NCBI GenBank assembly: GCA_003151975.1
Contig: PLZD01000044.1
Coordinates: 1-46,264, forward strand
DNA from: Elusimicrobiota bacterium
Lineage (GTDB): Bacteria; Elusimicrobiota; Elusimicrobia; UBA1565; UBA9628
Direction of reading: 5' to 3'
DNA: 46,264 nt
Made by a program: the position numbers and the translations under genes. The notes below the pieces were generated by a model. That model saw nothing but the letters and a program-made list of their open reading frames with translations. It was not told the origin of the DNA and searched no databases. Shown here one piece after another: positions 19,168-41,561 of this stretch (position 1 is its first letter; every line of letters starts with the position of its first letter).

Positions 19168-20064
19168 ATGAAGGAACTCAACCGGCGCGAATTCTTGACG
19201 AGCGCGCTGGCGTTGGGCTCGGTCGCCGCGCTTTCGCCCGAGGCGCGGGCCATGCGCGAAGAGACGCTCTCGCCCGACCGCATGGGCGTCCTCGTCGACA
19301 CCACGGTCTGCATCGGCTGCCGCGGCTGCGAGTGGGCCTGCAAGAAGGCCCACGCCTTGCCGACGCCGCCGCTGGAAAGCTACGAGGACAAGTCGGTCTT
19401 CAAGGCGATGCGCAGGCCCGACGAGACGGCGCTGACCGTCGTCAACCGCTACGACAATCCGAAGGACCCCGCCGCCCCGTATACCGTGAAGGTGCAGTGC
19501 ATGCATTGCGAACACCCAGCCTGCGTCTCGGCTTGCATCGTCGGGGCGCTCAAGAAGCAGGAGACGGGAGCGGTCGTCTGGGATACCAATAAGTGCATCG
19601 GCTGCCGGTACTGCATGGTCGCCTGTCCTTTCCAGATTCCGGCGTTCGAGTATCAAAAGGCGCTCCAGCCGAGGATCATGAAGTGCGACTTCTGCGCGGA
19701 TCGCCGCGCGGCGGGCGGGCTGCCGGCCTGCGTCGAGCAATGCCCCGTCGAGGCGCTGACCTATGGCCGGCGCGACGATCTCGTGCGCGCCGCGCGCGAA
19801 CGGGTCAAAGCCTCGCCTCAGCGCTACGTCGACCACGTCTACGGCGAACTCGAGGTCGGGGGCACGTCGTGGCTCTATTTGGCCGGCATGGAATTCACGG
19901 AGCTGCAGTTTCCCAAGCTCGGCAGAAGCCCGGCTCCCGGAGTGTCGGAGAGCATCCAGCACGGAGTCTTCGCGTATTTCGTGCCTCCCGTCGCGCTTTA
20001 CGCGCTGCTGGGCATGGTGATGTGGACCTCTAAGGGCCCTCCCAAGGACGACGACGAGTCGTGA
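19168..20064 (+). CDS. Tat-exported 4x[4Fe-4S] ferredoxin-like subunit (HybA/NrfC type)
   Basis: The 298-residue protein starts at ATG 19168 with a twin-arginine signal (NRREFLT at 5-11, then a hydrophobic stretch ending AEAR-like ARA). An upstream in-frame ATG at 19120 would bury this signal. Four cysteine clusters follow: CIGCRGCEWAC (48-58), CMHCEHPACVSAC, CIGCRYCMVACP and CDFCADRRAAGGLPACVEQCP. This is the layout of periplasmic electron-wire subunits that bind four cubane clusters. A single C-terminal membrane helix (about 268-290) resembles HybA. It should pass electrons between the cytochrome c and the NrfD-type subunit encoded next. Confidence 0.92.
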   Translation: MKELNRREFLTSALALGSVAALSPEARAMREETLSPDRMGVLVDTTVCIGCRGCEWACKKAHALPTPPLESYEDKSVFKAMRRPDETALTVVNRYDNPKDPAAPYTVKVQCMHCEHPACVSACIVGALKKQETGAVVWDTNKCIGCRYCMVACPFQIPAFEYQKALQPRIMKCDFCADRRAAGGLPACVEQCPVEALTYGRRDDLVRAARERVKASPQRYVDHVYGELEVGGTSWLYLAGMEFTELQFPKLGRSPAPGVSESIQHGVFAYFVPPVALYALLGMVMWTSKGPPKDDDES

Positions 20065-28955: not shown

Positions 28956-29747
28956 CTAGTTTTGCCCGAGTTTTTGGAGGAACAAGGACAGGGGGCCTAG
29001 GTCGACGCGCCGGGGGCGCTGTCCCAGCGCCTGCTGGAGCTCGAGCATGCGCGCGTCGCGGATTTCGGCCTGCTTGAAATAGATGCGCTGCATGTCGTAG
29101 CGGGTCGTCTTGGCCGCGGCGTGCGATTCGAAGAGCGCGTGAAGTTGGCCGACCGAGCCGACGAAGACCGTCGGCACCGAGGGCGGCGCGCGCGCGCCGC
29201 CGAAGAATTGCCGGATCGTGGGATCGATGATGAGCTGGCCGCCGGCCAGCGCGTGCAGCAAATAGTAGTGCATCTCGGCTTCGACCACGTTGACGCCGTA
29301 GCCCATGTTCCGCAGGAGCAGCCCGAGCTTCGGCGCGGCGTCGCCGCAGCAGGGGGAATCCAGGCTCGTGCCCGGTCCGCGCCATTCGCCGAGGCGCACG
29401 CTGTCCTTGAGCGACGGCAGGGCCTGAGCGACCGACGCTCCGATGGCCGCGCGGGCCTCGTTGAGTTCGGGCTCGCGCGCGGCCGACTGCGGAGTGACGA
29501 TCATGGGAGAAACTTGCCGTCCGTCCGAGATCGCGCTGATGGGCTCGCCGGCTAGAGCCGGGATGTTCCCGGGGATGACGGTCGGAGCGAGAGCGACCTG
29601 GCCGGGCAGGATGAGCGCGCAAGACGCGCAGGACGAGCGGACCTCCTGGCCCGGCAGAATGATTCGGCGGGGCGCCTCGTTGAAATCCGCCGCCCCGACG
29701 GGCAATGCGAGCCGGGCCGCGACGAGAAGTGACCAAAGGATCGTCAT
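28956..29747 (-). CDS. Exported protein with a possible papain-like (Cys-His-Asp) fold
   Basis: The 263-residue product starts at ATG 29747 with a signal peptide (cleavage near VGAA-DF); a longer upstream frame lacks a signal. The mature N-terminus has a CASC pair (40-43). Then SPCCGDAAPKLGLLLRNMGY (Cys 133/134 before a helix), VEAEMHYYLLHALAGG (His 160) and LIIDPTIRQFFGG (Asp 175) occur in the order and spacing of a papain/transglutaminase-like catalytic triad: Cys at a helix start, His at a strand start, and Asp in a DPT turn. I know this pattern from polymorphic-toxin papain-like domains, but no family match can be claimed. TATCCT ends 7 nt before the start. Confidence 0.55.
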   Translation of the reverse strand: MTILWSLLVAARLALPVGAADFNEAPRRIILPGQEVRSSCASCALILPGQVALAPTVIPGNIPALAGEPISAISDGRQVSPMIVTPQSAAREPELNEARAAIGASVAQALPSLKDSVRLGEWRGPGTSLDSPCCGDAAPKLGLLLRNMGYGVNVVEAEMHYYLLHALAGGQLIIDPTIRQFFGGARAPPSVPTVFVGSVGQLHALFESHAAAKTTRYDMQRIYFKQAEIRDARMLELQQALGQRPRRVDLGPLSLFLQKLGQN

Positions 29748-29754
29748 CGCCCTA

Positions 29755-29760
29755 AGGATA
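29755..29760 (-). promoter_or_regulatory. -10 box for leaderless papain-like gene
   Basis: On the minus strand TATCCT (29760-29755), 7 nt before the ATG at 29747. No Shine-Dalgarno. Confidence 0.45.
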
Positions 29761-29888
29761 CCACGCGCGCCGCGCGCGCGCGAGGACCGGCCGGCCCTCC
29801 CCTGAGGGACTTTAGGCCTAATCGCCCTTAGACCATTCGTCCGGGCCCTATGGGCCCAATGTTTTCGGCTTTTTGGGACCATTGGTCC

Positions 29889-29906: not shown

Positions 29907-29965
29907 AGCGTTAATATGGTGCCGTAGCACAATGTCACGCGGCTGTCATTAGGGAGATAGACAAC

Positions 29966-32515
29966 ATGAGCGACACCAAGAGCTTCGCAGCAATCAAGCG
30001 AGTTTTCGCGGTCCTTCTTTGTCTCGCGGTTTCCGCCGGCGCTCCCGGCTCCTCGGCCTTCGCCGCCCTTTCCGAAATCAACGCCAAGATCGTCACGCTT
30101 CCCATCGGAGCCGTCGTGCCGGTGATGCCGACCGCCAACATCCGCACGCTCGGCACCACGGGCATCCCCGAACTCCCGATCGTCAACGAGGGGCCGGTCA
30201 ACGAGCCGCGCCTGATTCCTTCCATTCTCGAGGCCGCCGGCGTCGTCAATATTCCCGAAGCCGTCCTGCAGGCGCTTCAGCCGGAGGCTGGAGCGCAGGC
30301 TCATCTTGAATCGGCGGTGACATCCGCCGCGTCTCTGGAGCGCTCGGGCAAGAGCCCGTCCGGCGGCGCCGCTCCTTCCGCTGCCGAAATTAAAGAACAG
30401 CAGGACCAGGTTTACTCGGGCAGCGCCGTCTCCGGCGACTCGTCCGCGGCCGCTCCCGTTTCCGGCAACTACATGGAGAGCTCGCCCGCGCTGCCTTTGC
30501 CCAAGCTCAAGCCGAGCTGGCGCGAGTCGCAGGCGCCGTCGTCTCCCGACCTTAAGTACCGCTCCGACGCTAAGGGCCTCAAAGACATCGGCGATGAGAG
30601 CGCGCTGTCCGTCAAGGAAACGCTCAAGCCCGAGTCGGTCCCGAACGCTTTCAAGGACATCACGCCGGACAACGAGTCGCTCAGCTACGGCAAGCGCCTC
30701 TACATGGAAGTCCGCAACGGCCTGAAGGAAGCCCGCATGGTCGGCGGACGCGTGGCCTGGACCGACGCCGAGGGCAAGCTCAACCTCTACGACCCGAAGT
30801 CCGACGAGACCAAGGTCATCGCGGCGCCGATGGGCGCCATCGAGAAGTTCGTCTCGAGCCCGCACTCCGAAACACTGTACGTCATCGCCGGCGGCCACCT
30901 GCAGCGGTGGGATTTGAGCGACAACAAGGCCGTCGTCCTGCTCGACGACAAGGTCAACGAGCTGGGCATCCACGATTTCTCCGCCTTGCGCTCCTCCGAG
31001 GACGGCATCGAGATCAAGACCGACAAGGGCGATCTTTTCTGGACCCATCATAAGGTCTCGTTGTTCGAGGGCGGCCCGGGCGAAGTCGTCGCCGACCAAG
31101 GTGTCGCACCCACGCTCAAGCAGTCGGGCGAATTCTACATCGAGCAGACGGCTTCCGGTTCCCGGATCTGGCGCAACACCTTGAGCGGCTCGGGCTCGCC
31201 GGTCACCGACCTGGGCACCTTGCCCTTCGAGGTCAAGGCGGTCTCGGCCGACCAGGGCCGCGACACGATCTACGCGGTGACCGAGCAGGGCATCGTCGAA
31301 TGGGACGTCGCGGGACGGCGCTTCCGGCTGTTTGAAATCGACGGTCTGAAGAAAGCGACTCTCGGCCGGAACGTGACGCTGGACCTCAGCCTCAACGGCC
31401 GCAACGCGCTCGTGGCCGCGGGCGACAAGATCTTCCACATCGATTTCGGCGATTCGACGCGCGACGCCGAGTCGAACGAAAGCAAGGTCCGCGCTTGGTC
31501 TGAAGAGAATCCGATGACGATCAAGGACGGCGTGCTCTCCATCGGCGGCTTCACCTTCCCCGTGCAGAGCCGCCAGCCCGAGGTCGTGACGCGCTCCTTG
31601 TGGCAGCGCTTCGTCGACTTCGTCCTGCGCCGCACGCCGGCCGCGCCCAAGAACGACGGACTCGCGCTGAGCCAGGAAGATTGGCAGGCGGTCAATCTCC
31701 CGACCAACAAGTGGGCGATCTACCAGACTTTGAAGGGCTTCACGCTCGGCCAGCACGTGCTCTACATCGGCGAGACGGGCGGCGGCAAGACTTGGATGTC
31801 GGAAAAGCTCGCCAAGCTCATCGGCCGCAAGCTCTACATGGTTTCTTTCACGGAGTATACTAAGAACCAGGACCTGCTCTTCGCCCGCACCTTCGGCGAG
31901 GAAGGCAAGAACAAGACCGGCAAGACCTTCGAGACGGTGCTCCAGTGGCTCAACGACCCGCAGGGCGGCATTCTGCTGCTCGACGAGATGCACAAACCTC
32001 TCGAGGGCATCGCGGCGCTCAACAACATCCTGCAGAACCTCAAGTACCACATGGCCGGCAAGGACATCGTTGGAAATAAGAAGACGCACTTCGTCATCGG
32101 CACGATGAACCCCGTCAAGCCGCCTTATAAAGGAGAGCCTCCCTCGGGTGAGCTGTCCTCCCGCTTCGGCGTGACCCTCGAGGTGAATTACCTCCCGCGC
32201 GCCGAGGAAGCAGCACTCCTGAAAATATTCTACCCCGGCGTTAAGCAGGAAGTCGCCAAGCGGCTCGTCGACATCGCCAACGACCTGCGCAAGGTCTACC
32301 CCGACCTGCTGCCTCTGCCGGTCGCGCCCCGCACCTTGCTCCAGATCGTGGCCAAGCTCGTGGCCTTCCCGCACGATGATCCCATCGAAGCTTTTAAGAC
32401 GACGTATAATCCGGCTTCGATAGTTCAGGACCCCTCGATCATCGAGGCGATCGCGAAGGCGCTCGCCGCCCACGACCTCGCGGGCGCGGTCAACCCCGGC
32501 CAAAAAAAAAAGTAA
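29966..32515 (+). CDS. MoxR-type AAA+ ATPase with signal peptide and N-terminal propeller-like region
   Basis: The 849-residue protein has a good Shine-Dalgarno (AGGGAGA) and then a signal-peptide-like N-terminus (basic FAAIKR, hydrophobic VFAVLLCLAV, cleavage near AFA-AL). Residues about 45-230 are low-complexity. Residues about 235-510 form repeated short strands (RVAWTDAEGKLNLYDP, TLYVIAGGHLQRWDL, TIYAVTEQGIVEWDV), like a beta-propeller. Residues about 565-849 are a MoxR/CbbQ-like AAA+ module: Walker A GETGGGKT (602-609), Walker B ILLLDE (669-674), sensor-1 HFVIGTMNP and arginine-finger-type ELSSRFG. An AAA+ domain behind an export signal is exceptional. The gene ends CAA AAA AAA AAG TAA, and the -1 frame continues openly into the VWA gene. 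Confidence 0.85.
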   Translation: MSDTKSFAAIKRVFAVLLCLAVSAGAPGSSAFAALSEINAKIVTLPIGAVVPVMPTANIRTLGTTGIPELPIVNEGPVNEPRLIPSILEAAGVVNIPEAVLQALQPEAGAQAHLESAVTSAASLERSGKSPSGGAAPSAAEIKEQQDQVYSGSAVSGDSSAAAPVSGNYMESSPALPLPKLKPSWRESQAPSSPDLKYRSDAKGLKDIGDESALSVKETLKPESVPNAFKDITPDNESLSYGKRLYMEVRNGLKEARMVGGRVAWTDAEGKLNLYDPKSDETKVIAAPMGAIEKFVSSPHSETLYVIAGGHLQRWDLSDNKAVVLLDDKVNELGIHDFSALRSSEDGIEIKTDKGDLFWTHHKVSLFEGGPGEVVADQGVAPTLKQSGEFYIEQTASGSRIWRNTLSGSGSPVTDLGTLPFEVKAVSADQGRDTIYAVTEQGIVEWDVAGRRFRLFEIDGLKKATLGRNVTLDLSLNGRNALVAAGDKIFHIDFGDSTRDAESNESKVRAWSEENPMTIKDGVLSIGGFTFPVQSRQPEVVTRSLWQRFVDFVLRRTPAAPKNDGLALSQEDWQAVNLPTNKWAIYQTLKGFTLGQHVLYIGETGGGKTWMSEKLAKLIGRKLYMVSFTEYTKNQDLLFARTFGEEGKNKTGKTFETVLQWLNDPQGGILLLDEMHKPLEGIAALNNILQNLKYHMAGKDIVGNKKTHFVIGTMNPVKPPYKGEPPSGELSSRFGVTLEVNYLPRAEEAALLKIFYPGVKQEVAKRLVDIANDLRKVYPDLLPLPVAPRTLLQIVAKLVAFPHDDPIEAFKTTYNPASIVQDPSIIEAIAKALAAHDLAGAVNPGQKKK
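32502..32515 (+). other. A10 slippery run (A AAA AAG) and stop: candidate -1 frameshift site
   Basis: Ten consecutive A (32502-32511) precede G. In the zero frame this contains A AAA AAG (32506-32512), the same heptamer that E. coli dnaX uses for -1 frameshifting, followed at once by TAA. A -1 slip continues through GTA ACT GAC into the reading frame of the VWA protein with no stop, giving a fusion of about 1553 residues. Transcriptional slippage on A10 or an assembly indel (11 A) would have the same effect. Confidence 0.65.
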
Positions 32516-32532
32516 CTGACGGCGCGGCATCC

Positions 32533-32579
32533 GAGGCCCCCAAGACCGAGGCTCCTTCGAGCCCGGAGCAGGGGGCCTT
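32533..32579 (+). other. Stem-loop just downstream of the slippery run
   Basis: GAGGCCCCC (32533-32541) can pair with GGGGGCCTT (32571-32579) over 9 bp including one G-U. Inside it GGCTC-CTTC-GAGCC (32550-32563) forms a 5-bp hairpin. The structure begins 20 nt after the slippery heptamer, longer than usual for bacterial -1 sites, and lies ahead of the ATG at 32593. It could stimulate frameshifting or block an independent start. Confidence 0.5.
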
Positions 32580-32592
32580 CGATTTTGATCCG

Positions 32593-34626
32593 ATGATCAA
32601 GCCGGTCAACCCGGTCCATCGGGCGCTGGCCGACGCCGTTGAGCAGGCCGGCCTCACCGGCGATCGTTCTTTGCTGTTTCCGATGACGTTCAACACGCCC
32701 AACGGCGCTCAGGCCTCCGAGGGGCCGCAGGGGAACACGGGCTGGGCCAAGGTGCTCGAACAGTTCGTGCGCCTGCTGACCGGCTACACGCCGATGCGCT
32801 TCACTCCGTTCTACGTGCTCAAGAAGCACGGCGAGACGGAAGAGAACACGCCGCCGCGCTGGCGCACGATCCTGGGGCTCGAGGAGATCCAATATCTTCC
32901 CGAGGACGTCAACGACCCGGACAAGAACGTCTCGTTGGGCAAGACCGCCCACGAGATCTGGCACGTCCTCTTCAGCCGGCCCGAAATCATCTTCGACGAG
33001 CCCGCGCTCATCAAGAACATGGCCTTCCAGGCGCTCTGGTGGGCCATCGAGGACCCGCGCGTCAACATCCAGGGAGTCAAACGCCACCCCGGCGCCCAGG
33101 AATGGATCGACGCCGCGATGAAGAAGGACTACGAGATCAAGGACCTCGCCGCCGAGCAGAAGCGCTGGACCGAGGAGATCCCGCTGCACCTGCAGTTCAA
33201 TTACGCGTTGATCTACGAGTGGTGGTCCGGGCAGCCCGACCCGCGCGTCACCGACGAGCGCGTCAAGGAAGCGCTGGCCGAGGCCGCCGATCCGATCCGC
33301 CGCGCCTACTCCACCGGGGACGCGCGCAAGAGCTTCAAGATCATCCGCGACGAAGTCTGGCCCATCTACAAGAAGCTCGTTGACGAGTCATACCAGGACC
33401 AGCAGGACAAGCAACAAGGCGACGGCGAGAGCGAGGATCAGGACCAACAGGGTCAGGAAAGCGATCAGGATTCGGATAGTCAATCCAGCTCCTCGAGCCA
33501 GCAACAGGGAAAACAAGGCAAGCCAGGCAAGCAAGGCAAGCAGCAGAAGAAGCCGCAGAAGCCCGTCTCCGACAAGGTCAAGGAACAGATGGAGAAGAAG
33601 GAGAAGGAGTTCCGCGACAAGCACGCCAGTAAGGTCGTCGACAAGCCCGAGAAGATGAGCGAGAAGGAAAAGCAGGACGCCAAGAAGGATCTCGAGCGCA
33701 TGCGCAAGAAGATGGGCCAGAAGCAGGACGGCGACAAGCAGCAAGGCGAGCCGCAGGACGGCCAGCAGGGCCAGCCGCAGGACGGTGACGGCGACGGCGA
33801 CAAGTCGGGCGAGATGACGCAGCAGCAGAAGCAGGAGCAGCGCGAGCGTCTGAGCAAGCCCGACACGCGCGAAGAGACCGACTCGAAGGACGAGGCCGAA
33901 TACAAGGACTACTTCAGCAAGGTCCGCCACCTGGTTCCGGTCATGAAGGCGCAGTTCCAGCAGGTCATGCGCCGCAAGATCCGCCGGCGCTTCCTGCACG
34001 AGCGCAAATCCGGCGATCTCGATGAGGACGCGATCAGCGAGATCCCCAGCGGACGCTCCGACGTTTTCGAGGAGAGCATGATCGCCAACAAGACGCTTTA
34101 TCGCGTCTCCTTACTGATCGACGTCAGCGGCAGCATGAGCGGCGAAAAGAAGGAGCACTCGATTCTGGCCGCGGTCATGATGATGGAGGCGCTCGACAAG
34201 CTGCCCGGCGTGTCGTACGAGATCGTGCGCTTCGACGACAAGCCGCAGGTGGTCAAATCCTACAACGAGCGCACGACGCAAGCGATGAAGGTCGCGGTGG
34301 TCAAGGCGTTATTAAAGAACGGCGGCAGCACGCAATCTGACCTCGCCGTGCGCGAGGCCATCCAGCGCATCCGCATGGGCCGCGGCGACAAGCTCATGAT
34401 GATGATGAACGACGGCGACCCCGACAACAACTTCGACCGCGAGGCGTACCGGCAGATGATCCTCGCCGCCAAGGACATCGAGATCCACGGACTCGGCCTT
34501 GGGCCGGAGGCGCAGCTCGTCATCGATCTCTTCCCGAAGGGACGCGGCTGGTGGCTCAACGACGTGACGGAATGCGCCAAGCGCATCCGCGAAATCTTGA
34601 AAAAGAAGTTCCTCGGCGGAACTTGA
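32593..34626 (+). CDS. Metallopeptidase-like/VWA-domain protein, partner of the AAA+ ATPase
   Basis: Counted from the ATG at 32593 the product has 677 residues. However, the frame is open upstream to the A10 run, with protein-like Ala/Pro/Glu/Ser codons and no start codon or near Shine-Dalgarno. Residues about 20-250 fit the putative metallopeptidase domain found N-terminal of VWA-like domains (DUF2201-type), with HEIWH at 120-124. Residues about 270-440 are a very polar Gln/Asp/Lys-rich linker. Residues about 505-677 are a VWA domain with MIDAS DVSGSMS (510-516), then NGGSTQSDLAV and MNDGDPD. Such proteins pair with MoxR ATPases in metal-insertion or assembly chaperoning. It has no signal peptide, unlike its partner, which favours synthesis as a fusion. 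Confidence 0.88.
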   Translation: MIKPVNPVHRALADAVEQAGLTGDRSLLFPMTFNTPNGAQASEGPQGNTGWAKVLEQFVRLLTGYTPMRFTPFYVLKKHGETEENTPPRWRTILGLEEIQYLPEDVNDPDKNVSLGKTAHEIWHVLFSRPEIIFDEPALIKNMAFQALWWAIEDPRVNIQGVKRHPGAQEWIDAAMKKDYEIKDLAAEQKRWTEEIPLHLQFNYALIYEWWSGQPDPRVTDERVKEALAEAADPIRRAYSTGDARKSFKIIRDEVWPIYKKLVDESYQDQQDKQQGDGESEDQDQQGQESDQDSDSQSSSSSQQQGKQGKPGKQGKQQKKPQKPVSDKVKEQMEKKEKEFRDKHASKVVDKPEKMSEKEKQDAKKDLERMRKKMGQKQDGDKQQGEPQDGQQGQPQDGDGDGDKSGEMTQQQKQEQRERLSKPDTREETDSKDEAEYKDYFSKVRHLVPVMKAQFQQVMRRKIRRRFLHERKSGDLDEDAISEIPSGRSDVFEESMIANKTLYRVSLLIDVSGSMSGEKKEHSILAAVMMMEALDKLPGVSYEIVRFDDKPQVVKSYNERTTQAMKVAVVKALLKNGGSTQSDLAVREAIQRIRMGRGDKLMMMMNDGDPDNNFDREAYRQMILAAKDIEIHGLGLGPEAQLVIDLFPKGRGWWLNDVTECAKRIREILKKKFLGGT

Positions 34627-38558: not shown

Positions 38559-40292
38559 CTAGCCCTTGAGGCTCTTGAGCGAGTCCAGCAGTTCCGCGGC
38601 GGTGGCCACGCGCTTCTTGGGGTCGGGATTGAGCGTCGCGATGAAGAGGAGCTCCGCTTCTCTCGGAAGCTCGGGCGCGAGGAATTGCGGCGGCGTGTAC
38701 TTCATGCGCTCCTTCTGCGCGAGGAAATCGGGGCCCGGAAACGGCAGTTTGCCCGTCATCGACTCGTAGAGGCACACGCCCAGCGCGTAGATGTCGGAGG
38801 CCTTGGCGCACTTGCCCAGATGCTGCTCGGGCGCCATGTACCACGGAGTGCCCGCGGTGTCGGCGTGGGTCAGGCGCGTGATCGTCTCCTTGGCCTCGCG
38901 CGCGATGCCGAAGTCCATGACCTTCGCGTAGCCCGCCTTGTCGACCATGATGTTGGCGGGCTTGAGGTCGCGATGCAGGACGTGGTTCTCGTGCGCGCAG
39001 GTGATGGCCTCGCAGACGTAGGTGTAGAGCGTCTGGGTTTCCTTGAGGGTCAGGCGCTTTTTCTCCCAGAGAATCTGCGAGAGCGGCTTGCCGTCGACGA
39101 AGTCGAAGACGAGATAGACCTCGCCTTTCTCCTCGACGACGTCGTGGAACGCGACGATGTAAGGATGGCTGAGGTGCGAGATGATGCGCGCCTCGCTGAG
39201 GAACGCGGCGACCTCCTCGGGGAACTCCTTGAGCTCGGCGCGCATCTGCTTGATGGCCACGCGCCGGCCGAGCGAATGATCAAAGCCGTCGTAGACGATG
39301 CCCATGCCGCCGATGCCTATCTTGCCGCGCAGCTCGAAGCGGCCTTTGAGCAGCCCCGGCTTCAACGCGACGCCGGGACTTGCGGTGAAGGGCGCGGGCT
39401 CGGCGGGAACCGCCGTGGCACGAGGCTCGGGCGGGGCCGACGTCGAGCCCGACTGAGTGAGATCGGTGTTCGCGTAGACCGTGTCGCGCTTGGGCTTGGC
39501 CCACTGTGATGCCAGATAAAATCCGCCGCCGGCTCCGCCCAACGCCGTTAACAGCGCCAGAGCGATCCAGAACGCCGGGACGCCTCCGCCGCTCGAGCGG
39601 GCAGGCTCGGGCCTGGGTTTCTCTTGGACCACGACCCAACCCGTGTTGTCGGTGTCCTTCGAATGGTCGGGGCCGCTCAAGGGAGGCGCCACGGCGTCGT
39701 GCTTCTCGATGTGGGATGAAGCGGCTTCCTGCGCTTGGATCAGCATCTGGTTACCGGGAGCCAACTGGAGCCCGTTGCTGGCGTCCTGCACGGCCTGCTT
39801 GTAGTTCCCGAGAGAATTGTTCGCGGACGCGCGCACGAGGTAAGCGTTGGCGGACGGGCCCGCCTCGAGGGATTCCGTCGCCAGGCGCGCGGCTAAAGTC
39901 GCGTTGCCGGCTAGCAGGGCCTCCTCGGCTTTGGCCAGCTTGTCGTCTTCGGCAGGCTGCACCGTTCCCTCGGTCAGCGCTTGGAAGCCGAGCTTGACGA
40001 CGCTGCCGTCGGGCTTGACCTCGATGGGATAGGCGCTGTAGGGATCGGCGTTGGGATCGTCGGGCACGACTTGGCCGTTTTTCAACCGCAGCAATCGCTC
40101 GGGCTGGTATTTGTGGTCTCCGAGATCGCGCCAAACGAGGCCCGTGGGCGGCGGGGGCACCTTGTCGGAGAAGTGGGAGGATTCGGGGCACATGATCGGC
40201 GTGGGATCGCCGCCTTCCTCGGGATAAAAGCATTGCGCGCCGGCGTTCGCGGCGCAAAAGAACACGAACCAGACGAGAAGGCTCCTGGCCAT
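38559..40292 (-). CDS. Receptor-like Ser/Thr protein kinase with exported N-terminal TPR domain
   Basis: Counted from the ATG at 40292 the protein has 577 residues. Signal peptide 1-20; periplasmic part with a TPR-like segment (about 117-190); a Pro-rich stretch; membrane helix about 240-262; cytoplasmic Hanks kinase 315-577 with GxGGMG loop (326-331), catalytic Lys 348, HRDLKPAN (440-447), DFG (460-462) and TAGTPWYMAPEQ. Most bacterial Hanks kinases are the other way round, with the kinase at the N-terminus. A longer upstream reading frame is a shadow of the divergent gene. TTGCCA-17-TATACT ends 6 nt before the ATG. The aldo/keto reductase gene follows in the same unit. Confidence 0.9.
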   Translation of the reverse strand: MARSLLVWFVFFCAANAGAQCFYPEEGGDPTPIMCPESSHFSDKVPPPPTGLVWRDLGDHKYQPERLLRLKNGQVVPDDPNADPYSAYPIEVKPDGSVVKLGFQALTEGTVQPAEDDKLAKAEEALLAGNATLAARLATESLEAGPSANAYLVRASANNSLGNYKQAVQDASNGLQLAPGNQMLIQAQEAASSHIEKHDAVAPPLSGPDHSKDTDNTGWVVVQEKPRPEPARSSGGGVPAFWIALALLTALGGAGGGFYLASQWAKPKRDTVYANTDLTQSGSTSAPPEPRATAVPAEPAPFTASPGVALKPGLLKGRFELRGKIGIGGMGIVYDGFDHSLGRRVAIKQMRAELKEFPEEVAAFLSEARIISHLSHPYIVAFHDVVEEKGEVYLVFDFVDGKPLSQILWEKKRLTLKETQTLYTYVCEAITCAHENHVLHRDLKPANIMVDKAGYAKVMDFGIAREAKETITRLTHADTAGTPWYMAPEQHLGKCAKASDIYALGVCLYESMTGKLPFPGPDFLAQKERMKYTPPQFLAPELPREAELLFIATLNPDPKKRVATAAELLDSLKSLKG

Positions 40293-40298
40293 GCCGTG

Positions 40299-40327
40299 AG
40301 TATAACAGCCGTGGGCGTCCTTGGCAA
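40299..40327 (-). promoter_or_regulatory. Promoter for leaderless kinase transcript
   Basis: On the minus strand TTGCCA (40327-40322), 17 nt, TATACT (40304-40299), then 6 nt to the ATG at 40292. There is no Shine-Dalgarno. Confidence 0.72.
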
Positions 40328-40335
40328 GATTGGCC

Positions 40336-40364
40336 TTGACGCGCGGGCGTTTTCCGGCGAAACT
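40336..40364 (+). promoter_or_regulatory. Promoter for leaderless MFS transcript
   Basis: TTGACG (40336-40341), 17 nt, GAAACT (40359-40364), then 6 nt to the ATG at 40371. It lies back to back with the kinase promoter in a 78-nt divergent region. Confidence 0.55.
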
Positions 40365-40370
40365 TCCCGG

Positions 40371-41561
40371 ATGCGCAAGTTCCTCGCGAGCGTATGGGAT
40401 GCCGCGGCGTTTCGGCAGAGCCGCCCCGTTCTGATGACGACCTTCACCAACCGCGTCGGCTCGATCGGTCTGAGCCTCGTGCCGATCCTGCTGGTGAAGA
40501 AGGGAGTCACCACGGGGGAAGGCGCGTTCGTGCTCTCGACTTTGAAGGCGACGATACTCGTCGGAACCTTGGCCGGCGGGGCGCTCTCCGACCGTTTCCC
40601 TTCGCGCACGCTGGTCCTGTGCGCTTTCCTGATGTCGGCCTGCGGGCTTGGGCTCCTGCCCTTCCAACACGCGGTGCTGATGATCCTCTTTTTCGGGATA
40701 CTCGCCCAGCTCGCCGAGGCCATGCTCAACGTCGCGCAGCGGACCTTGCTGATGGGGCAGGTCGAGGTCGTCTATCAAAAGGAAGCGCTGGGCTGGCTCC
40801 GGATGGCTCACAACTTCGCGCAGATCTTCAGCTACGGCATCGCGGCGGCGGCCTCGTCGTTCGGCGTGATGCCGCTGATGGTCTTCGACTCGGCGACGTC
40901 GATCGCGGCCTTCTTGATGGGACGCAAGTTCTTGCCCCGCGACGCCCCGGAAGCCGCGGGCCGCCGCTTCGGCGGCGGCGAGGGCTCGCCCTCCTCGCGG
41001 ACGGCCTTTTTCGGATTGGCCGCGGTCTTGCTCGGCTGGATGTTCTTCTACGAGCTGTTCCTCGAGGGGGGCTCGGGACGGCTCGAGGTCCTGCATCCCG
41101 GCGAGGGGCTGCGGCGATTCTCATCGATGATGATCCTTAACACGATCTTGTGCGCGGCGTTCTCCGTGCGCGCGTCGCGTTTCTTCGAGCGGTCGTGGGC
41201 CGCGATCGCGGGCGGCGTCGTGCTGACGGCGGCGGGCATACTCGTCGCGGTTTGGGGAATGGCCTCGCAGCTCTGGGTCTTCTCGGGCATGGTGCTGATC
41301 ACCTCCGGCGAGCTTATGCTCGCGGCGGTAGCGCAATATACTTTGATGCGCCTGACGCCCGGGCATAAGAACGCGGGTTTCTATTACTCGATGGGTCTGA
41401 TGCTGATGCAGTGCGGCCGGATTCTGGGCGCGACCTTGGCGTTCCCTCTGCTGATCCATGCCCAGAGCCTCGTGGGTTTTACGAGCCTCATTTGCGGAGT
41501 GCTCGTGGTCTTGCTCGCCATTCTCTACTCCCTGAAGGCCCAAATCTCTCAGCTAGGCTGA
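40371..41561 (+). CDS. MFS-type membrane transporter
   Basis: From the ATG at 40371 the product has 396 residues and about 12 hydrophobic helices in two halves separated by a cytoplasmic loop (RDAPEAAGRRFGGGEGS). The first half has the MFS loop signature GGALSDRFPSRTLVL. The start is chosen because a promoter ends 6 nt upstream and the earlier in-frame part overlaps the kinase gene on the other strand. No transport substrate can be named; the divergent kinase may be unrelated. Confidence 0.85.
   Translation: MRKFLASVWDAAAFRQSRPVLMTTFTNRVGSIGLSLVPILLVKKGVTTGEGAFVLSTLKATILVGTLAGGALSDRFPSRTLVLCAFLMSACGLGLLPFQHAVLMILFFGILAQLAEAMLNVAQRTLLMGQVEVVYQKEALGWLRMAHNFAQIFSYGIAAAASSFGVMPLMVFDSATSIAAFLMGRKFLPRDAPEAAGRRFGGGEGSPSSRTAFFGLAAVLLGWMFFYELFLEGGSGRLEVLHPGEGLRRFSSMMILNTILCAAFSVRASRFFERSWAAIAGGVVLTAAGILVAVWGMASQLWVFSGMVLITSGELMLAAVAQYTLMRLTPGHKNAGFYYSMGLMLMQCGRILGATLAFPLLIHAQSLVGFTSLICGVLVVLLAILYSLKAQISQLG

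Follow-up and report, generated by a model that had tools for sequence, protein, structure and literature searches.

A Signal-Tagged MoxR-Type AAA+/VWA Gene in Elusimicrobiota: a Candidate Exported Remodelling Machine with a Putative Frameshift Site

We describe a gene of an Elusimicrobiota bacterium that lies in a stretch of 46,264 nucleotides (contig PLZD01000044.1 of assembly GCA_003151975.1; the whole stretch is hereafter called the window). An open reading frame (ORF) of 849 amino acids at positions 29966-32515 of the plus strand has, in sequence and ORF translation, the layout given by the initial annotation, namely, a Sec-type signal peptide, a propeller-like domain and a MoxR-type AAA+ ATPase. 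The ORF is as described there, but the gene does not end with it: the ORF forms the front of an AAA+/VWA gene that runs on downstream. We judge it fairly probable that the product of this gene is a remodelling machine of the MoxR-type AAA+/VWA kind, exported by the Sec route and with a likewise exported ATP supply, and made in two forms by way of a run of ten adenines (A10) between its halves. The layout, the homology, the conserved signal-like N-termini and the relation between the two frames are read directly from the sequence. Genomes, contigs and loci are denoted below by G, C and L numbers.

An AGGGAG element resembling a Shine-Dalgarno sequence (29951..29956, plus strand, as for all features of the gene) lies 9 nt 5' of the ATG. 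The signal-peptide-like N-terminus (residues 1-33; 29966..30064), recognized by heuristic and by eye and kept in relatives, is followed by an alanine/proline (A/P)-rich linker (residues 34-167; 30065..30466), a predicted beta-propeller region (residues 168-535; 30467..31570) and the MoxR-type AAA+ module (residues 566-839; 31661..32482). In an AlphaFold2 model of the ORF (mean predicted local distance difference test [pLDDT] score, 66), residues 1-167 score below 50, with the linker unstructured, and residues ~168-535 are all-beta, with scores mostly of 70-90. The initial annotation had proposed structure prediction of residues 230-510 as a check on its propeller-like domain, and residues 238-501 of the model indeed match WD40-type propellers among solved structures (Z ~15-16); the Pfam match to PQQ_2 is under its cut-off (E 0.0034). 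Residues 566-839 match CbbQ2 (6l1q; Z 19.0, root mean square deviation 2.6, 236 residues aligned) and NorQ (Z 18.4), and the modelled CbbQ/NorQ-like fold spans the whole AAA+ module. Pfam AAA_5 is found at residues 597-734 (E 5e-15), with CbbQ_C sub-threshold (18.3 bits against a cut-off of 20.6). Walker A (residues 602-609; 31769-31792), Walker B (residues 669-675; 31970-31990), GTMNP (residues 712-716) and SSRFG (residues 731-735) are all intact; the last two are sensor-1-like and arginine-finger-like. Together, the four motifs make up the AAA+ core expected in the CbbQ/NorQ branch of MoxR-type proteins. Model match, Pfam and motifs thus bear out the propeller-like domain and the MoxR AAA+ of the initial annotation, as the heuristic does its signal peptide. 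bpMoxR (PF20030) is absent among the Pfam matches of the AAA+ ORF up to an E value of 1, and NCBIfam returned weak, below-cut-off matches only for the window ORFs. A chance reading frame was ruled out on the grounds of homology and intact motifs.

Signals were called with our own heuristic, taking the best candidate start for each protein. The window N-terminus, MSDTKSFAAIKRVFAVLLCLAVSAGAPGSSAFA|A, is scored as a signal peptide, with a basic n-region, a hydrophobic core and an AxA-like site. Beyond it, the heuristic detects no 19-residue hydrophobic stretch in either the AAA+ ORF or the VWA frame. Signals were also called in 13/13 other proteins: ten from close relatives, both split G005 proteins and the distant AAA-WD40 protein of G048, the only one with a later hydrophobic segment. 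One additional N-terminus was read by eye. The initial annotation held that homologues without the hydrophobic N-terminus would speak against its reading; among relatives whose N-terminus lies on the contig, to which this test was limited, none is without a signal-like one. Signal cores in the relatives are short and followed by A-x-A-like sites, homologues with 28-62% identity retain both the N-terminus and the motifs, and no signal was called in the clade's canonical MoxR proteins (0/15). In G005, the VWA and double AAA+ proteins are encoded by neighbouring separate genes, each with a signal of its own, which is hard to explain unless both go to the same outside place. Conserved in homologues and absent from cytoplasmic relatives, the signal points to Sec export, and that the export signal is real, as the initial annotation had offered as one possibility, is more likely than an artefact. 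A start-site artefact was rejected, given the Shine-Dalgarno element at the ATG and the signal in every relative N-terminus tested.

The VWA half (ORF 32593..34626) is identified by Pfam VWA (6.3e-8), alignment and motifs. Its domain motif DVSGSMS (34120-34140) is preceded by a Q/K/E-rich linker, and alignment and motif reading find the MIDAS-like motif intact. An HEIWH motif, resembling the HExxH of zincin metallopeptidases, lies in the N-terminal part (32950-32964); HExWH is present in six of six aligned rows and degenerate in G005, and the region matched no family or structure, the single-sequence model being poor (pLDDT 45). Five relatives have a contig that covers the junction (G010, G016, G027, G036 and G039), and in all five the end of the AAA+ part and VWA form one open frame. 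The two window ORFs would be joined by one -1 step at the A10 run. Whether the break is a shift or an assembly error, the native machine very likely includes VWA. A known defence system was considered and rejected, as PADLOC matched neither of the two window ORFs, nor the fused relative L037.

The A10 run (32502..32511) is the longest A/T run in the 372,798 bp sampled, the next being one run of nine. It contains a slippery heptamer, A AAA AAG, in the AAA+ frame (32506-32512), directly followed by the TAA stop (32513-32515) and, 7 nt 3' of the heptamer, by a predicted RNA hairpin (32520..32592; -41 kcal/mol, z -3.25), whose stability is equalled in 10/1,478 GC-matched 85-nt windows (0.68%) and in 4.4% of 3,696 windows without GC matching. 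An open linker in the VWA frame, VTDGAASEAPKTEAPSSPEQGAFDFDP, covers 32512..32592. In a codon model for which 125 long ORFs of the same genome served as training set, the switch from the AAA+ to the VWA frame falls at A10: coding ends at 32510 in the one frame and begins at 32517 in the other, well before the VWA ORF has its first ATG (32593). Across the 372,798 bp there are 120 close same-strand frame changes, 14 of them without ATG or GTG near the upstream stop. Five of the 14 also lack TTG (two ordinary gene starts, one false antisense call, one assembly gap and the A10 site), and among these A10 alone remains unexplained; of the nine with TTG only, two were read (one spans an assembly gap). 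In dnaX (tau/gamma), an A AAA AAG heptamer and a hairpin yield a short AAA+ form beside a long form. With its heptamer in the 0 frame and a structure whose 7-nt distance falls in the 5-9 nt range of such sites, the A10 site looks like a dnaX-type -1 signal, and a -1 step there probably yields two forms from one gene.

Complete AAA+-only copies that stop soon after the AAA+ module are present in G036, G041, G011 and G031, with tandem copies in G036:C55 and G011:C3. Further copies are cut off by the end of their contig within the AAA+ part, a pattern that near-identical repeats would produce. It would appear that in relatives the AAA+-only and the AAA+-VWA subunits each have a gene of their own. 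The genome of the window has one AAA+ copy and one VWA copy, and may make both kinds of subunit from one gene by shifting. As a side observation, the second and third propeller/AAA+ copies of G036:C55 (L032:16387-20000) are continuous in one frame, the third being without a signal and its frame breaking near 19500. Giant or large signal-bearing proteins were also seen (L048:2997-17213, L160:3-5309, L162:584-7906, L156, L157 and L167), with open frames of up to >5,000 residues, and some of them carry AAA_5, WD40, a midasin-type lid and VWA.

Signal-tagged Lon, ClpB-like protein, adenylate kinase and PPK2 coexist with untagged canonical copies in Elusimicrobiota. Lon carries a signal in 8/30 loci (G000, G004, G008, G019, G023, G026, G030 and G033), the others comprising 14 complete loci without a signal, two weak calls (one clearly false, since it falls in the Lon N-domain) and six that are cut or broken. 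The genome of the window has one untagged Lon and one tagged Lon (C8; L066:9378-12881), in which the substrate-binding, AAA+, lid and protease domains are complete behind the signal-like N-terminus and residues ~110-330 are similar (E 1e-14 and 1e-9) to the N-region of ClpB-like proteins that carry a tag. The ClpB-like double AAA+ protein has a signal in G022, G018, G013, G003, G023, G043, G036, G014, G017 and G034; the call in G019 is not credible (the ORF is cut), four more are cut by contig ends or unclear, and no signal was found in G038. Canonical ClpB/ClpC proteins have none (0/15 loci). Loci of such double AAA+ proteins with signal-like N-termini include L050:10033-12714 and L109-L119.

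Second adenylate kinase copies (n = 17) show a clear signal in 12 cases, one of them judged by eye, with three hydrophobic but charge-poor or ambiguous, one without and one cut, and no signal was read in the canonical enzyme (0/11; 20 loci were given, nine without a motif match being excluded from the count). The second copy in the genome of the window (L228; C41:39500-45000) is among the 12 and has, before the kinase, another, possibly nuclease-like, domain. For the second, single-domain PPK2 (n = 16), the heuristic called 10 signals and four more were seen by eye, with none in G034; the canonical tandem PPK2 has none (0/14 read; 20 loci were given, six without a motif match being excluded). 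The second PPK2 loci are L302/L306 (C11 of the genome of the window), L296, L298, L300, L301, L304, L307-L314 and L316, and the signal-like N-terminus was seen in most genomes of the order that have such a copy.

Over 47 genomes, a tagged second adenylate kinase and/or PPK2 is present in 8/8 genomes with the signal-tagged MoxR family and in 12/39 others (Fisher P = 0.0004), charge-poor N-termini being counted as tagged and the split G005 system being left out of the family; within the order, the counts are 8/8 and 11/32. The initial annotation supposed that an exported ATPase would work where ATP is scarce, which becomes doubtful given that adenylate kinase and PPK2 bear this kind of N-terminus in these genomes too. 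It is tempting to go further, although we put this at just under an even chance, and propose that free-living Elusimicrobiota keep a second ATP-using compartment (the periplasm or a Sec-filled internal one), addressed by a shared N-terminus of signal, A/P-rich stretch and phiFDG-type motif, in which PPK2 and adenylate kinase would regenerate ATP from polyphosphate for MoxR-VWA, ClpB-like and Lon machines. The phiFDG motif follows the A/P-rich stretch in MoxR relatives and several tagged enzymes but not in the window protein, which has a degenerate form (YSG) only. Since FDG is also not enriched among signal-bearing genes (2/80, against 5/282 called genes in the genome of the window), the motif marks a subset and is no proven sorting signal.

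For the window gene, the proposed sequence of events would start with the signal peptide carrying the chain across the inner membrane, with no second membrane segment to return it, so that the exported chains would fold outside the cytoplasm. A -1 step at A10 would give signal-propeller-AAA+ (849 aa) and signal-propeller-AAA+-VWA (1553 aa) products. The CbbQ/NorQ-like modules would assemble into a hexameric ring, the propeller would probably dock clients, and the tethered VWA would transmit the movement of the ring to the client. The outside ATP that the ring hydrolyses would be maintained by tagged adenylate kinase and by tagged PPK2 (from polyphosphate).

Several observations weigh against this proposal. 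Export, outside ATP and frameshifting are what we infer, as are the ring and client engagement, and the signal itself depends on our heuristic and its choice of the best candidate start. In the genome of the window, the N-terminus of the second PPK2 is hydrophobic but charge-poor, and no ATP/ADP translocase was found there, with mostly weak, fragmentary matches elsewhere. In genus g6, several genomes with a tagged ClpB-like or split MoxR protein lack any second copy of adenylate kinase or PPK2, and both are likewise missing from some genomes with a tagged Lon. No tagged HSP70 was seen, the only copy read individually being an odd one without a signal. The co-occurrence statistic ignores kinship and genome size, and the MoxR-family genomes are among the larger ones.

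The break at A10 might instead reflect a single base missed in assembly or base calling, in which case the gene would really have A11 and form a single, always fused ORF of 1553 codons. This has a substantial probability, if somewhat below even, as AAA+ and VWA are fused unbroken in 5/5 relatives and the longest A/T run of the sample is the likeliest spot for a length error. Moreover, no AGGAG-like Shine-Dalgarno element was seen by eye just 5' of the heptamer, where dnaX has one, which weakens the case for a programmed shift. On the other hand, no other unexplained frame break occurs among the sites read in the sample, the heptamer register, 7-nt spacer and hairpin suit a -1 site, and the AAA+-only genes of relatives make a short form plausible. 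An A11 gene leaves the export reading untouched.

Export itself would fall if the N-terminus were an uncleaved anchor in reverse orientation, and AAA+/VWA an ordinary MoxR chaperone that is bound to the membrane and works on its cytoplasmic side. No other MoxR protein is known to us to act outside the cytoplasm, and the cleavage site is a predicted one. The periplasm, too, is held to be devoid of ATP in the available text of PMC11366764. We nevertheless regard this as unlikely, because the net charge is positive before the hydrophobic core with none after it, which predicts an N-in/C-out orientation, because relatives have short signal cores with A-x-A-like sites, and because there is no second hydrophobic segment. 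Tagged adenylate kinase, PPK2 and Lon stand beside untagged copies, and anchoring five kinds of soluble enzyme would make little sense. Improbable to a still greater degree is a machine secreted to act inside another, ATP-rich cell (host or prey) rather than in its own envelope. A freshwater Elusimicrobiota genome did come from an amoeba culture (PMC9476967), and the available text of PMC7355975 places HSP101 of the malaria parasite, an AAA+ unfoldase, in the vacuole outside the parasite. Here, however, no injection or delivery system is linked to the machine, the named relatives come from groundwater and lake samples, the tagged Lon and adenylate kinase look like housekeeping enzymes rather than effectors, and the nucleotide-recycling enzymes point to local ATP.

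Signal-like N-termini were also seen elsewhere. In the genome of the window, they precede an acyltransferase/AMP-binding pair (C11; L069:16845-19571) and a subtilase/GH77/debranching giant (C3; L061:7311-15908), enzymes that are usually cytoplasmic. Within the window, the divergent upstream gene (28956-29882, minus strand) has one inside the listed ORF, with a P/V-rich stretch, and its product has no Pfam match; in a Ser/Thr kinase (38559-41096, minus strand), the signal-like start likewise falls within the listed ORF, and with a sensor-like part, one membrane segment and a C-terminal kinase the protein has an ordinary topology.

As a single protein, the window product is a variant on the known MoxR kind with a new layout; the set of tagged ATP enzymes could be categorically new. 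For Elusimicrobiota, our searches of open-licence papers gave no account of the export of MoxR, Lon, PPK2 or adenylate kinase. According to the available text of PMC11366764, there is no ATP past the inner membrane, so folding and proteolysis there are ATP-free. If a bacterial lineage does send AAA+ unfoldases, an ATP-dependent protease and a pair of ATP-regenerating enzymes out of its cytoplasm, that assumption would be overturned and the rule that bacterial AAA+ machines use cytoplasmic ATP only would be broken. If the A10 reading is right, it would be a dnaX-like case in which the proportion of AAA+ and AAA+-VWA subunits is set by frameshifting and not by duplicated genes. Single genes make the assumption of an ATP-free envelope directly testable.

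With NorQ/NorD and CbbQ/CbbO, which are cytoplasmic, the window gene shares the AAA+ fold (Z 18-19) and a VWA partner with DxSxS, and it adds a signal peptide, an N-terminal propeller and the union of AAA+ and VWA on one chain. Midasin likewise has an AAA_5-type module, a charged low-complexity linker and a C-terminal VWA/MIDAS, with a weak profile match; it has six AAA+ modules against one here, Pfam finds no midasin lid domain in the window protein, and the window gene adds the propeller and inferred export. Torsins act in the lumen of the endoplasmic reticulum. Both torsins and Plasmodium HSP101, the latter as described in the available text of PMC7355975, have AAA+ on the non-cytoplasmic side, as proposed here, and the HSP101 complex has a predicted propeller-bearing partner; they differ in being ClpB-type, eukaryotic, supplied from known ATP sources and unrelated to MoxR. 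For NorQ, a hexamer binds one NorD in the available text of PMC9976466, and an excess of AAA+ over VWA subunits is probable here too. The initial annotation knew of no described family with this layout, but Kaur et al. 2020 (PMC7159879, available text) described ternary systems in which MoxR, vWA and beta-propeller, domains of the same kinds as here, are separate components. So far as the descriptions available go, none of the NorQ/NorD, CbbQ/CbbO, midasin and ternary systems is exported, and the term "signal peptide" is absent from the available text of PMC7159879. The window AAA+ has no bpMoxR match and no effector domain, unlike the ternary systems as described there, and whereas these are separate proteins with the propeller C-terminal to vWA and a third component in the operon, the window gene places the propeller N-terminal to AAA+ on one chain.

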